Below are positions 1 through 31,447 of a stretch of DNA of 39,520 nt, one piece after another (the first letter of the stretch is position 1; each line of letters starts with the position of its first letter). Made by a program: the position numbers and the translations under genes. The notes beneath the pieces are model-generated. The model was not told where the DNA came from and made no database searches. It was given only the letters and a program-made list of their open reading frames with translations. This DNA comes from Actinomycetes bacterium (GTDB lineage Bacteria; Actinomycetota; Acidimicrobiia; Acidimicrobiales; RAAP-2): the NCBI GenBank assembly GCA_021782915.1, contig JAJXUK010000019.1, forward strand, positions 1 to 39,520. Direction: 5' to 3'.

Positions 1-555
1 GGTGCGAAACCAGGGGGCTCCCGAGGGCGCCAAGGATCAGGCGAAGGCGCAGTACATCTGCGCGGGTCGGGCGGGAAAGCTCCAGTGTGCGCTGTGCCCC
101 TACGCGGCGGACTACCCGGAAGGGTTGCCCGTCATCGCTAATCCGCCGAGCGGTCCCTACCTTCCGGCTTCATGCTCACAGGCGACGAGAGTCGTCGACG
201 GCGCCGCGCTCATCAAGCTCGCCCAGCGCGACTACGGGGCAGCCCCGAGTGGCAGGCCTCGTACGGCCGACGGGCCCACGTCGAGAGCATCTTCGGGAAC
301 TTGCCCGACCCGAGCACCCAGAACATCCGGCGCGGCCTCTGTCGCGTCATGGGTCTGATCAAGACGACCCTGATGCTTGCTTTCGAGGTGATGGCCGCCA
401 ACCTGCGCCTGGTGCGCGAGTGGGCCAGGGCCACGGGCGAGAACTCCGATCCGCTCCACGAGCCCTTCCCCGAGGACGTCGGCGTCGAGGAGATCGACGC
501 CGAGGGTAACGTCCGCGTCGCGTCGCCGGACGACCTCAGCCCACCGGGCAGCTAG
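1..555 (+). pseudogene. C-terminal remnant of a DDE-type transposase, frameshifted
   Basis: The reading frame enters from outside the window and carries a cysteine cluster (CALCPYAADYPEG) like the knuckle in the DDE region of some actinobacterial transposases. Near position 240 it must shift by one missing base to continue as SPEWQASYGRRAHVESIF followed by an RRG and a helical stretch ending near WARATGE. That RRAHVE...G.L...RRG...A.NLRL pattern is typical of the C-terminal third of IS1182-like or related transposases. Joining the two frames gives one continuous protein, so the gene is broken rather than two small genes. The N-terminal catalytic part lies upstream of the window or is gone. 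The family is tentative; the remnant nature is well supported. Confidence 0.65.
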
Positions 556-25048: not shown

Positions 25049-25133
25049 GGGTCGGTGCCCGAGCGGACAATGGGATCTGGCTGTAAACCAGACGGCTTAG
25101 CCTACGGGGGTTCAAATCCCTCCCGGCCCACCA
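25049..25133 (+). tRNA. tRNA-Tyr (GUA)
   Basis: An 85-nt class II tRNA with acceptor strands GGGTCGG and CCGGCCC, anticodon stem-loop TCTGG-CTGTAAA-CCAGA (anticodon GTA), a long variable arm and TTCAAAT in the T-loop. The CCA end is encoded at 25131-25133. It stands alone between yajQ and the mannosyltransferase gene. Confidence 0.96.
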
Positions 25134-27437: not shown

Positions 27438-27510
<73 letters not shown>

Positions 27511-27515
27511 CGCCA

Positions 27516-27592
27516 GGCGGCGTAGCTCAGGTGGTTAGAGCACACGGCTCATAATCGTGGTGTCGCGGGTTCGACTCCCGCCGCCGCTACCA
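27516..27592 (+). tRNA. tRNA-Met (CAU), elongator type
   Basis: Acceptor GGCGGCG pairs with CGCCGCT (ending in G-U). The anticodon stem-loop is CACGG-CTCATAA-TCGTG with anticodon CAT, and TTCGACT forms the T-loop. CCA is encoded at 27590-27592. It lacks the three G-C pairs of an initiator anticodon stem, so it is called elongator Met; a tRNA-Ile2 with modified C34 is less likely by overall sequence. Confidence 0.9.
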
Positions 27593-27844: not shown

Positions 27845-27917
27845 AGGGCAGTGGCTCAATTGGTAGAGCACCGGTCTCCAAAACCGGGGGTTGGGGGTTC
27901 GAGTCCCTCCTGCCCTG
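27845..27917 (+). tRNA. tRNA-Trp (CCA)
   Basis: Acceptor AGGGCAG pairs with CTGCCCT. The anticodon stem-loop is CCGGT-CTCCAAA-ACCGG with anticodon CCA, and TTCGAGT forms the T-loop. The discriminator is G, as expected for Trp. The 3' CCA end is not encoded. It directly precedes secE, a conserved arrangement. Confidence 0.96.
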
Positions 27918-29350: not shown

Positions 29351-30067
29351 ATGAAGCACGGCAAGAACTACGTCAACGCCCTGGCCCAGGTCGACCGCGA
29401 GGCGCTGCTGAGCGTCGGCGAGGCCGTCGACAAGGTCAAGGCCCTGGCCAGCGCCAAGTTCGATGAGACCGTCGAGCTGGCCCTGCGCCTCGGGGTCGAC
29501 CCGCGTCGGGCCGAGCAGATCGTGCGCGGCACCCTCTCGCTGCCCGCCGGCACGGGCAAGACCAACCGCGTGGCCGTCTTCGCGGCCGGCGAGGCCGCCG
29601 CGGCCGCGCGCGAGGCCGGCGCCGACGTCGTGGGTGCCGAGGACCTGGTGGCCAGGGTCGCCGGGGGCTTCCTCGACTTCGACGTGGCCATCGCCTCTCC
29701 GGAGCTGATGGGCCAGGTCGGTGGCCTGGGCCGCGTGCTCGGGCCGCGGGGTCTGATGCCCAACCCCAAGACCGGGACCGTGACCATGGACGTGGCCAAG
29801 GCGGTGAGCGAGTTCAAGGGCGGGCGCGTCGAGTACCGCACCGACAAGATCGGCAACGTGCAGCTGCGCGTGGGCAAGGTCAGCTTCAGCCGCGAGGACC
29901 TGATGCTGAACGTGCACGCCGTGATCGACGAGATCGTGCGCGTCAAGCCCTCGAGCGCCAAGGGCCGCTACCTGCTCAGTGTCACGCTCTCTTCGACGAT
30001 GGGCCCCGGGGTCAAGATCGACCCGGCCCACGCCCGCGAGCACGACGAGATCCTGGCCGGCGCCTGA
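29351..30067 (+). CDS. rplA: 50S ribosomal protein L1
   Basis: L1 forms the mobile L1 stalk and often represses its own operon. The 238-residue protein includes [20 protein letters not shown] and the signature [16 protein letters not shown], and ends EHDEILAGA. It starts 14 bases after rplK with AGGAGA as the ribosome binding site. The next genes have their own promoter, so rplA probably ends the secE transcript. No L1-target-like leader was noticed upstream of rplK. Confidence 0.98.
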
Positions 30068-30068
30068 G

Positions 30069-30098
30069 TTGACGGCCCGACGCGCGGCCCGCTAGCAT
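30069..30098 (+). promoter_or_regulatory. Promoter of the rplJ-rplL operon
   Basis: TTGACG (30069-30074) and TAGCAT (30093-30098) are separated by 18 bases, a near-consensus housekeeping promoter. It begins directly after the rplA stop, and transcription should start near 30105, ahead of the L10 leader. Confidence 0.75.
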
Positions 30099-30104
30099 TG
30101 GCCC

Positions 30105-30260
30105 TTCGCACGTCTCGTGCCACAGTCGTAGAACGCCGAAGACATCCGGTGCGGTTCGCCGCCTAAGGGACGAAAGTCCGCCTGACGAGGAGTTCGAGCC
30201 ACTGGCTCGTTCGCTGGGATGTCTTGGCCCGTACCGGGCGGCATCCGGTGAAGGAGAGAG
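30105..30260 (+). ncRNA. L10 leader, autoregulatory 5' region of rplJ
   Basis: About 155 untranslated bases fold well. The closing helix AAGACATCC (30139-30147) pairs perfectly with 30217-30225. Inside it are GCGG-TTCG-CCGC (30151-30162, a UUCG loop), GGAC-GAAA-GTCC (30168-30179, a GNRA loop) and CGAGCC-ACT-GGCTCG (30195-30209). GCCCG-TAC-CGGGC follows (30227-30239), just before the ribosome binding site. Position and the GAAGACA motif match L10 leaders, where L10 with L7/L12 binds and represses rplJL. CATCCGGTG occurs at both 30143 and 30242, allowing an alternative pairing. Confidence 0.8.
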
Positions 30261-30956
30261 ATGAAAGTACGCCCCGAGAAGGTGGCCGTCATCGACGAGG
30301 TCGCCGAGCGCGTCGCCACGACCTCGACCGCGGTCGTCACCGAGTACCGCGGCATGACCGTCGCACAGATCTCGACCCTGCGCCGGCGCCTGCGCGCCCT
30401 GGGCGCGGACTACAAGGTCTTCAAGAACACCCTCGTGCGCCGGGCCATCTCGGGCACCTCGGTCGAGCCGCTGAGCGAGTTCCTCGACGGGCCGACGGCC
30501 ATCGCCTTCATCGACGGGGACGTCTCGGCGGTCGCCAAGGCGCTGCGCGACTTCACCAAGGAGAGCCCGGCCCTGATCGTCAAGGGTGGGGTGCTGGACG
30601 GGCGCTCCCTCTCGAGCGCCGAGCTGAGCGCGCTGGCCGAGCTGCCCAGCCGCGACGTGCTCCTGGCCCAGCTGGCCGGTCTGCTGGCCAGCCCGCTGCG
30701 CACCATGGCCGGGCTGCTCAAGGCCGTCCCGCAGAACTTCGCCTATGGCCTGTCGGCCCTGCTTGATGCCCGGGGCGGCGCCCCGGTCGAGGGCACGACG
30801 GGCGCCGAGACTCCGGCCGGGGTCGAGGACGCCGAAGAGGCGAGCGAGGACACCGCGGCCGAGGCCGAGGGTGTCGTGGCGTCGGAGGAGGCTATCGCCG
30901 AGCCCGTCGCCGAGACCGAGGCGCCCACTGAGGCGTCCAGCGAACCGGCCGAATAG
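30261..30956 (+). CDS. rplJ: 50S ribosomal protein L10 with a long acidic tail
   Basis: L10 anchors L7/L12 dimers on the ribosomal stalk. The N-terminal domain is standard (RPEKVAVIDEVAERV, VVTEYRGMTVAQI, YKVFKNTLVRRA), and the L7/L12-binding helix region follows to about residue 175. The total of 231 residues is about 55-60 longer than usual because of a tail rich in Glu, Ala, Thr and Pro, ending EASSEPAE. GAAGGAGAGAG gives a strong ribosome binding site. rplL follows after 33 bases. Confidence 0.96.
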   Translation: MKVRPEKVAVIDEVAERVATTSTAVVTEYRGMTVAQISTLRRRLRALGADYKVFKNTLVRRAISGTSVEPLSEFLDGPTAIAFIDGDVSAVAKALRDFTKESPALIVKGGVLDGRSLSSAELSALAELPSRDVLLAQLAGLLASPLRTMAGLLKAVPQNFAYGLSALLDARGGAPVEGTTGAETPAGVEDAEEASEDTAAEAEGVVASEEAIAEPVAETEAPTEASSEPAE

Positions 30957-30989: not shown

Positions 30990-31373
30990 ATGGCTGCACT
31001 GACCAAGGAGCAGATCCTCGACGGGATCGCGGCTCTCACCGTCATTGAGCTGAGCGAGCTCTTGAAGGAGTTCGAGGAGAAGTTTGGCGTCACCGCGGCG
31101 GCCCCGATGGCCGTGGCCGTCGCGCCGAGCGCCGGCGCGGCCGAGCCCGAGGCCGAGGAGAAGAGCGAGTTCGACGTCATCCTCACCGGCGGCGGCGACA
31201 AGAAGATCCAGGTCATCAAGGAGGTCCGCGCGCTGACCAACCTGGGCCTCAAGGAGGCCAAGGACCTGGTCGACGGCGCTCCCAAGCCGGTGCTGGAGCG
31301 CGTCTCCAAGGCCGACGCGGAGAAGGCCAAGGCCGCCCTCGAGGGCGCCGGCGCGACCGTCGAGGTCAAGTAG
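30990..31373 (+). CDS. rplL: 50S ribosomal protein L7/L12
   Basis: The stalk protein that recruits translation GTPases, 127 residues. The N-terminal dimerization helices ([20 protein letters not shown]) are joined by an Ala/Pro hinge (about 40-56) to the C-terminal domain with [20 protein letters not shown] and [19 protein letters not shown] precedes the ATG. A strong hairpin lies 26 bases after the stop, so rplJL can end separately from rpoBC. Confidence 0.98.
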
Positions 31374-31398
31374 TCGCCACGTGTCGGGCGTTCGGCCT

Positions 31399-31432
31399 GT
31401 TCACCCCGGCTCCACGAGGCGCCGGGGTGAAC
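31399..31432 (+). terminator. 12-bp hairpin after rplL, terminator or attenuator
   Basis: GTTCACCCCGGC (31399-31410) pairs perfectly with GCCGGGGTGAAC (31421-31432) around a ten-base loop. No T-run follows. It separates rplJL from two promoter-like sites for rpoBC, and may act as a partial terminator that sets the ratio of ribosomal protein to polymerase mRNA. Confidence 0.6.
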
Positions 31433-31447
31433 GGGTCGGCCCGGTAC

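Follow-up and report, generated by a model that had tools for sequence, protein, structure and literature searches.

A putative L10-responsive leader with competing pairings upstream of rplJ in the Acidimicrobiales

Described L10 leaders and the rplJL locus

Autoregulation by L10 is among the oldest feedback loops of ribosomal proteins. According to the available text of Yakhnin 2015 (PMC4538822), the rplJL leader of Bacillus subtilis is a chain of anti-antiterminator, antiterminator and terminator with an L10(L12)4 site. L10 represses through such a site in both Escherichia coli and B. subtilis, as described in the available parts of PMC10931766 and PMC4538822. For E. coli, the former, a 2024 review, calls the detailed translational mechanism unresolved in its available part and places the site far from the ribosome binding site (RBS).

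How does the leader upstream of rplJ in an Actinomycetes bacterium of the order Acidimicrobiales compare with these systems? The window analysed here is a stretch of 39,520 nucleotides (contig JAJXUK010000019.1 of assembly GCA_021782915.1). As far as the B. subtilis leader is described in the available text, the two have in common a kink-turn and UAA site of the L10(L12)4 type and overlapping, mutually exclusive structures ahead of rplJ. The outputs differ: in B. subtilis the chain ends in an intrinsic terminator and its U tract, whereas here the last structure is predicted to bury the Shine-Dalgarno (SD) sequence. In the cascade proposed here, moreover, the L10 site and the middle structure would share the 5' kink-turn strand. 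The likeness to the E. coli rplJL leader lies in a layout with GAAGAC flanked by CCGTC/GACGG upstream of rplJ (by our own comparison) and in a translational output, which is predicted here. In the present leader, the predicted RBS-burying hairpin shares a strand with the pairing that would hide the predicted L10 site.

Is this leader a member of the Rfam family L10_leader (RF00557)? It has the AGACA / UAA / CCUGNCGAGG core and lies directly upstream of rplJ, the position required of the family, but it falls short by score: no match at gathering level was found in the window, and none at E<=5 in 30040-30320. Across 59 genomes of the order the model gave one match, below the cut-off; among 14 well-known genomes used as controls, four matched, three of them over the cut-off. 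With Rfam 15, RF00557 is also below gathering at the rplJL locus of E. coli K-12, the classic L10-regulated case, so the miss here is weak evidence. The leader would work like an L10 r-leader, although its score leaves it outside RF00557. A literature search, made largely outside subscription journals, found no paper on an rplJ leader from Acidimicrobiia, and the available text of PMC7247131 makes no mention of L10. The Rfam scan of the window also gave a small SRP RNA and five tRNA genes (937-1035, 765-849, 25049-25130, 27439-27589, 27845-27917).

The open reading frames of the locus presumably follow the order rplK-rplA-rplJ-rplL-rpoB-rpoC, the names being assigned from sequence and gene order; the frame after rplJ we take to be rplL by its sequence and position (Table 1). 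A predicted promoter overlaps the end of rplA, and a pattern scan found TTGACN-16..19-TANNNT upstream of the leader in 58 of 62 relatives. Because of this promoter-like match and its recurrence, the rplJ leader probably has its own transcript from about 30105. The window has a small hairpin at the predicted transcript start, and in 54 of 62 leaders a GCAC..GTGC or GCGCC..GGCGC hairpin lies at most 60 nt upstream of the leader core.

Two inverted repeats were seen at the borders of the rplJL unit. The promoter stretch holds a perfect inverted repeat of at least 6 bp, with varying letters, in 24 of the 58 relatives with the promoter pattern (3.2% in mononucleotide shuffles); an example is TGACGGGGC-GCAC-GCCCCGTCA in L013, and the window's own version is weak (4 bp). 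This repeat may be the 3'-end hairpin of an rplKA transcript or an operator. Between rplL and rpoB lies a second, strong inverted repeat (31393-31438), the arms of which are 21 nt long, 86% complementary and 4 nt apart. No T run comes after it in the sequence examined, and it may serve for processing or attenuation upstream of rpoBC.

Table 1. Features of the rplJL leader and its surroundings in the window
Feature	Position	Strand	Basis or remark
Predicted rplJL promoter TTGACG-18-TAGCAT	30069..30098	+	scan: 1 found, 0.0 expected
5' hairpin GCACG-TCT-CGTGC, at predicted transcript start	30108..30120	+	sequence
Predicted L10(L12)4-binding domain	30131..30195	+	stem conservation, covariation, Rfam homology via L131
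Closing stem C0, GAAC.G.CC / GG.A.GUUC	30131-30137 / 30189-30195	+	part of predicted L10 domain
Kink-turn strands GAAGACA / CGA	30138-30144 / 30186-30188	+	kink inferred from sequence
Inner stem UCCGG / CCUGA	30145-30149 / 30181-30185	+	part of predicted L10 domain
Hairpins P2, P3; UAA	30151-30162, 30168-30179; 30164-30166	+	part of predicted L10 domain
P1, GACATCC / GGATGTC	30141-30147 / 30217-30223	+	alternative state, span 30135..30228
P1 outer GCC / GGC	30135-30137 / 30226-30228	+	kept in 62, 62 and 60 of 62 leaders
Hairpin P4, CGAGCC-ACT-GGCTCG	30195..30209	+	sequence; 3' strand also used in R
Hairpin R, predicted to bury the SD	30206..30256	+	folds, conservation, covariation, swap test
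R: CTC / GAG, outermost	within 30206..30256	+	takes the SD
R: TTCGCT / GGTGAA	30210-30215 / 30247-30252	+	outside GGATGTC/GGCATCC
R: GGATGTC / GGCATCC	30217-30223 / 30240-30246	+	7 bp with a U.G
R: GCCCG / CGGGC (hairpin A)	30227-30231 / 30235-30239	+	innermost part
Small hairpin B, UACCGGG-CGGCA-UCCGGUG	30232..30250	+	adjoins the SD; possible with R open
SD region GAAGGAG	30250..30256	+	sequence
rplJ (L10) CDS	30261..30956	+	231 aa; ORF; relatives found with rplJ; ATG at 30261
Presumed rplL (L7/L12) CDS	30990..31373	+	127 aa; ORF

The predicted L10 site and pairing P1

Of 61 genomes searched, 57 yielded RplJ, and 56 named loci were added, the nearest named relatives of this genome being Acidimicrobiaceae and other uncultured Actinobacteria. 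The 113 upstream sequences comprise 94 distinct ones, 62 from the genus or very near it and 32 more distant. The 62 genus leaders (61 distinct rows) form alignment A1, and A2 is A1 with seven more 5' bases. In these leaders GCCGNAGACATCCGGTG...GCCTGACGAGG is nearly constant and the hairpins P2 and P3 between the two vary with compensation, and in many of them GGCCCGTACCGGGCGGCATCCGGTGAAGGAG, directly before rplJ, is nearly constant as well. The pattern GCCCGN{1,4}CCGGGCGGNATCCGG, at any position, occurs in seven of nine sampled genus genomes, in none of three from other genera of the family and in two of 286 others of the order.

The predicted L10 domain is closed by the stem C0. Together with the inner stem, C0 is paired in 93.8% of 610 cells and shows 8 double-change cells against 1.7 in shuffled alignments (0/500); a C-G pair has become A-U in three rows and U-A in two, and three rows have U-A in place of A-U. 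Sliding C0 by -1 column gives 12 double-change cells, more than C0 itself, but only 58.8% pairing. At the level of the order, the CGCC/GG(C,U)G pairing is kept in 97 of 105 cells, compared with 93.6 after swapping (695/20,000). The core letters of the kink-turn, AGACA/CGA with the UAA, are invariant or nearly so in the 62 leaders. L131, the sole leader of the order that matches L10_leader (42.7 bits, cut-off 44), does so over CCG.AGA.A...CCUG.CGAGG, with ACC/GGU flanking and the AGACA strand unpaired, and in the family consensus the kink-turn strand is preceded by UACC, and CGA is immediately followed by GGua. Judged by these motifs, C0 occupies in the genus the place of UACC/GGua in the consensus.

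Where does this leave P1, the pairing of GGATG with the first CATCC? It was originally predicted to close the L10-binding structure. However, P1 takes the strand that would form the kink-turn and the inner stem, and it also crosses C0, so that it cannot coexist with the L10 site. The homology to Rfam L10_leader and the other leaders of the order, in which GACA is the unpaired kink-turn strand and GCC/GG closes directly after CGA, argue that P1 is probably not the closing stem, and this part of the prediction is not supported. Covariation of P1 was sought in the genus alignment and none was found, since its 5' strand hardly varies. A P1-like pairing was not significant across the order (5,665/20,000 with 23 leaders, 2,357/20,000 with 21). 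These sets were drawn from 26 leaders; in L102, L104 and L106 no core or CGA motif was found, and the truncated leaders L088 and L092 were left out of the 21-leader test of the P1-like pairing and C0.

The main rival to our reading nevertheless retains P1 in the bound form, which would turn the switch in the opposite direction: L10 would stabilise P1 as part of its binding structure and prevent R, leaving the SD exposed, or repression would come from bulk or from hairpin B. P1 is indeed paired in 92.6% of 365 cells (61 distinct rows), and RNAalifold, run on the 62 leaders, selects P1 with GCC/GGC and not C0 or R. In the order of transcription, P1 and the adjacent hairpins would also fold first. 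We regard this layout as unlikely, since it conflicts with the unpaired GACA and the closing pairs directly after CGA in the Rfam match, as well as with the covariation of C0, which P1 crosses. Exposure of the SD by L10 would moreover amount to positive feedback, unlike the known L10 cases.

Hairpin R and the Shine-Dalgarno region

The leader came to attention through a repeat, CATCCGGTG, at 30143-30151 and 30242-30250, with GGATG at 30217-30221 between the copies; these positions, the hairpin GCCCG/CGGGC and GAAGGAG are all where the original prediction had placed them. For the 9-mer, 0.48 occurrences would be expected in the window and two are present; 8 of 100 shuffles reach at least that number. 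The repeat on its own is weak evidence, and conservation is the better guide. In the 2.1-Mb genome there is a single case of two copies spaced by 30-120 nt. The element was also considered as a repeated genomic signal and rejected: three further sites were found, all at 3 mismatches, and a reversed control pattern gave 5 matches. The first copy is nearly invariant, and in some enforced folds (L008, L020) it pairs with the SD (GAC-A-UCC/GGA-GUC).

GGATG was predicted to pair with either CATCC, one pairing excluding the other, and both pairings are well kept in the 62 relatives. Of the 62 leaders, 42 have an exact second CATCC and another 6 have TATCC, in which a G.U pair is retained; the second pairing is complete (5/5) in 38. 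Covariation of this 5-bp helix alone is thin, with two double-change cells, both at pair 30219-30244, and it is the longer helix R that carries the support. When GGATG/CATCC is enforced in single-sequence folds, one long hairpin results, R. The statement that the second pairing ends four bases before GAAGGAG was thus incomplete: the enforced helix runs outward through the SD, and the effect on access to the rplJ start is predicted to be larger than had been supposed.

R is paired in 91.4% of 1,214 cells (61 distinct rows), and in 33-53% when slid by 1-3 columns. Double changes occur in 15 of its cells, where shuffles give 8.0 (1/500), and at 5 of its pairs, where they give 2.7 (24/500); by pair types (211/500) or covariation score (62/500) it is not beyond shuffles. 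In several divergent relatives the SD is buried, as judged by eye, with other letters: CGTGACTC/GAGTCACG in L070, ATGGACTC/GAGTCCAT in L067 and CTCGCCTC/GAGGCGAG in L027.

Burial of the SD was also assessed by a swap test that needs no fixed alignment, in which the segment from SD to start was paired with the P4 3' region of its own or of other leaders. In the genus (26 distinct segments), own pairs reached -9.34 kcal/mol and swapped pairs -8.21 (sd 0.37; 39/20,000). Across 25 leaders of the order the values were -16.28 and -14.87 (9/20,000), after the start-codon rule had been revised following a first run in which many starts were wrong (3,855/20,000). L081 and L083-L087 were left out of this 25-leader test, of the order tests of P1 and C0 and of the coding-window controls, and L109 was dropped from the burial test, its SD not having been found. 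Repeats to which five of the six left-out leaders (L087 has no SD by the rule) and three sister-genus leaders were added, in sets of 27, 30 and 33, gave between 1 and 16 of 20,000 (counts of 16, 6 and 1), and the repeat of 25 gave 8. None of six coding-window controls was significant at order level. In the genus, six of seven were not significant, but the segment that directly follows the start codon reached 0/5,000, a significance on a par with that of the SD segment, so the match of the SD segment there may come partly from shared ancestry or from extension into the gene. The window's own outer R is poor, at rank 0.69 among swaps.

Two smaller hairpins in this stretch were considered and set aside. 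Hairpin B was first scored as a second structure in 62 of 62 leaders, with arms picked by a pattern that favours it; on the fixed alignment it is paired in 86.3% of 423 cells with covariation not clearly beyond shuffles (53/500 for double changes), and R was preferred. Hairpin A is complete in 47 of 62 leaders and belongs inside R.

Could the conserved stretch instead encode a leader peptide that controls rplJ by coupling? The window contains a small frame, MSWPVPGGIR, from ATG at 30219 to TGA at 30249-30251, whose stop overlaps the SD region. There is no visible SD before this ATG, and one-base insertions among relatives shift the frame while, by eye, the RNA pairing is kept. The frame shifts led us to reject the peptide, which we find barely credible.

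Energy balance, the proposed switch and the order

Are P1 and R sufficiently balanced to compete? That the second pairing is far too weak to rival P1 was considered and dropped when folding gave near balance. Enforcing P1 or the second pairing gives a mean difference of +0.3 kcal/mol (range -6.4 to +7.1) in 57 leaders, five of the 62 being unable to take both enforced states. Over the 62 leaders the mean pair probabilities are 0.44 for P1 and 0.43 for the second pairing. For the window RNA 30105-30320 the energies are -88.9 kcal/mol free, -88.4 with P1, -87.4 with R and -84.6 with the L10 site enforced, and P1 and R in the window leader plus 60 nt of coding sequence are about 1 kcal/mol apart. 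P1 and R are predicted to be near-isoenergetic.

The SD of the window RNA is predicted to be unpaired with probability 0.49 free, 0.55 with P1, 0.37 with R and 0.38 with the L10 site. Over the 62 leaders the exposure averages 0.31 free, 0.28 with the L10 site enforced and 0.38 with P1 enforced; enforcing the L10 site brings it below the P1 value in 44 of 62 (by >0.1 in 29) and raises it by >0.1 in 8. The L10-site state lies on average 4.0 kcal/mol above P1 in the 62 leaders, before any protein binds, and these folding numbers show possibility and not direction, because the program takes account of neither kink-turns nor proteins.

R is predicted to hide the SD, and it shows covariation, while the predicted changes in exposure are modest. 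Such modest differences between states, and the many single-sequence folds that mix them, would also suit a fixed folded leader that sets the level of translation or the stability of the mRNA with no protein-driven switch. Little credence is given to this account: GGATGTC is common to two conserved pairings that exclude each other and stay near balance, and the L10 kink-turn and UAA features lie upstream.

In the alignments and folds, P1, C0 and R are conserved, C0 and R covary, the pairings are mutually exclusive, and P1 and R are near balance. We hold it moderately probable that this is an autogenous rplJL leader in which three competing elements, the L10 site, P1 and R, act as an L10-driven off-switch; for this we infer binding of L10(L12)4 to the leader, a shift towards R on binding, and reduced translation once R has formed. 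In the P1 state, seen with P4 in folds of several relatives, GACATCC and GGATGTC would pair (with the outer GCC/GGC) and the L10 site would be dismantled; P1 would keep GGATGTC off the ribosome binding site, and rplJ would be translated. With more L10(L12)4 than rRNA present, the complex would capture the kink-turn and block P1. The loss of P1 would free GGATGTC and the 3' strand of P4, which would pair with GGCATCC-GGTGAA-GGAG to form R, burying the SD and stopping translation. This direction fits the autorepression known in E. coli and B. subtilis, and it would parallel the three-step chain of B. subtilis, with burial of the SD replacing termination. Of the switch originally proposed beside the rplJ start, the competing pairings stand, and the first pairing as lid of the L10 site is not supported.

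A more general reading is possible, though we put it somewhat short of an even chance: the active fold would mask the repressor's own site. The L10 kink-turn strand would then also keep the anti-SD arm away from the RBS, L10 binding and SD burial would be one strand exchange, and the output arm (an SD hairpin in the genus, terminator-like in some families) would have been swapped in the evolution of the order.

Sister genera appear, by eye, to rebuild the leader design with other letters. L148 keeps P1 as GACATCC/GGATGTC, has the inner hairpin GTCCG/CGGAC, and its GCTC can pair with GAGC on the SD side; in L146 and L147 ATCCGG pairs with CCGGAT and the SD is buried by GTCCTCG/CGAGGAC. Folding separates the two states by at most 0.3 kcal/mol in L147, favours R by 3.1 in L146 and favours P1 by 4.6 in L148.

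Some other families of the order may use another output. A strong hairpin with a T-rich tail stands at the position of R in 4 of 26 order leaders (L091, L095, L106, L107), which suggests that the output arm has been exchanged between families; a terminator scan tool agrees for L091, L095 and L107, and not for L093. These long GC hairpins of other families, which stand just before the SD and start GGCGTTCG, GGGTGTTCG or GGCGTCCG, are candidate L10-controlled terminators.

Does transcription attenuation, as in B. subtilis, then operate in the window as well, with R, B or P4 as terminator? Besides the T-tailed hairpins of the order, P4 followed by an interrupted T tail is picked out by a loose scan in 24 of the 62 leaders of the genus. 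However, no terminator-like site of the intrinsic B. subtilis type was found in 29900-30400 of the window, nor by a looser scan between GGATG and SD in the 62 leaders, and the hairpin runs straight into the SD. Attenuation is accordingly judged quite improbable here, and translational control through R is preferred.

The arrangement is compact, the stretch that runs from the L10 site up to the start codon being about 130 nt long, and its named strands can be tested by pair swaps. If true, the strand-exchange reading would provide a worked model for translational L10 autorepression. The results also suggest the presence in Acidimicrobiales of L10 leaders that escape the current Rfam model (in 58 of the 59 genomes sampled), and output arms that vary from family to family.
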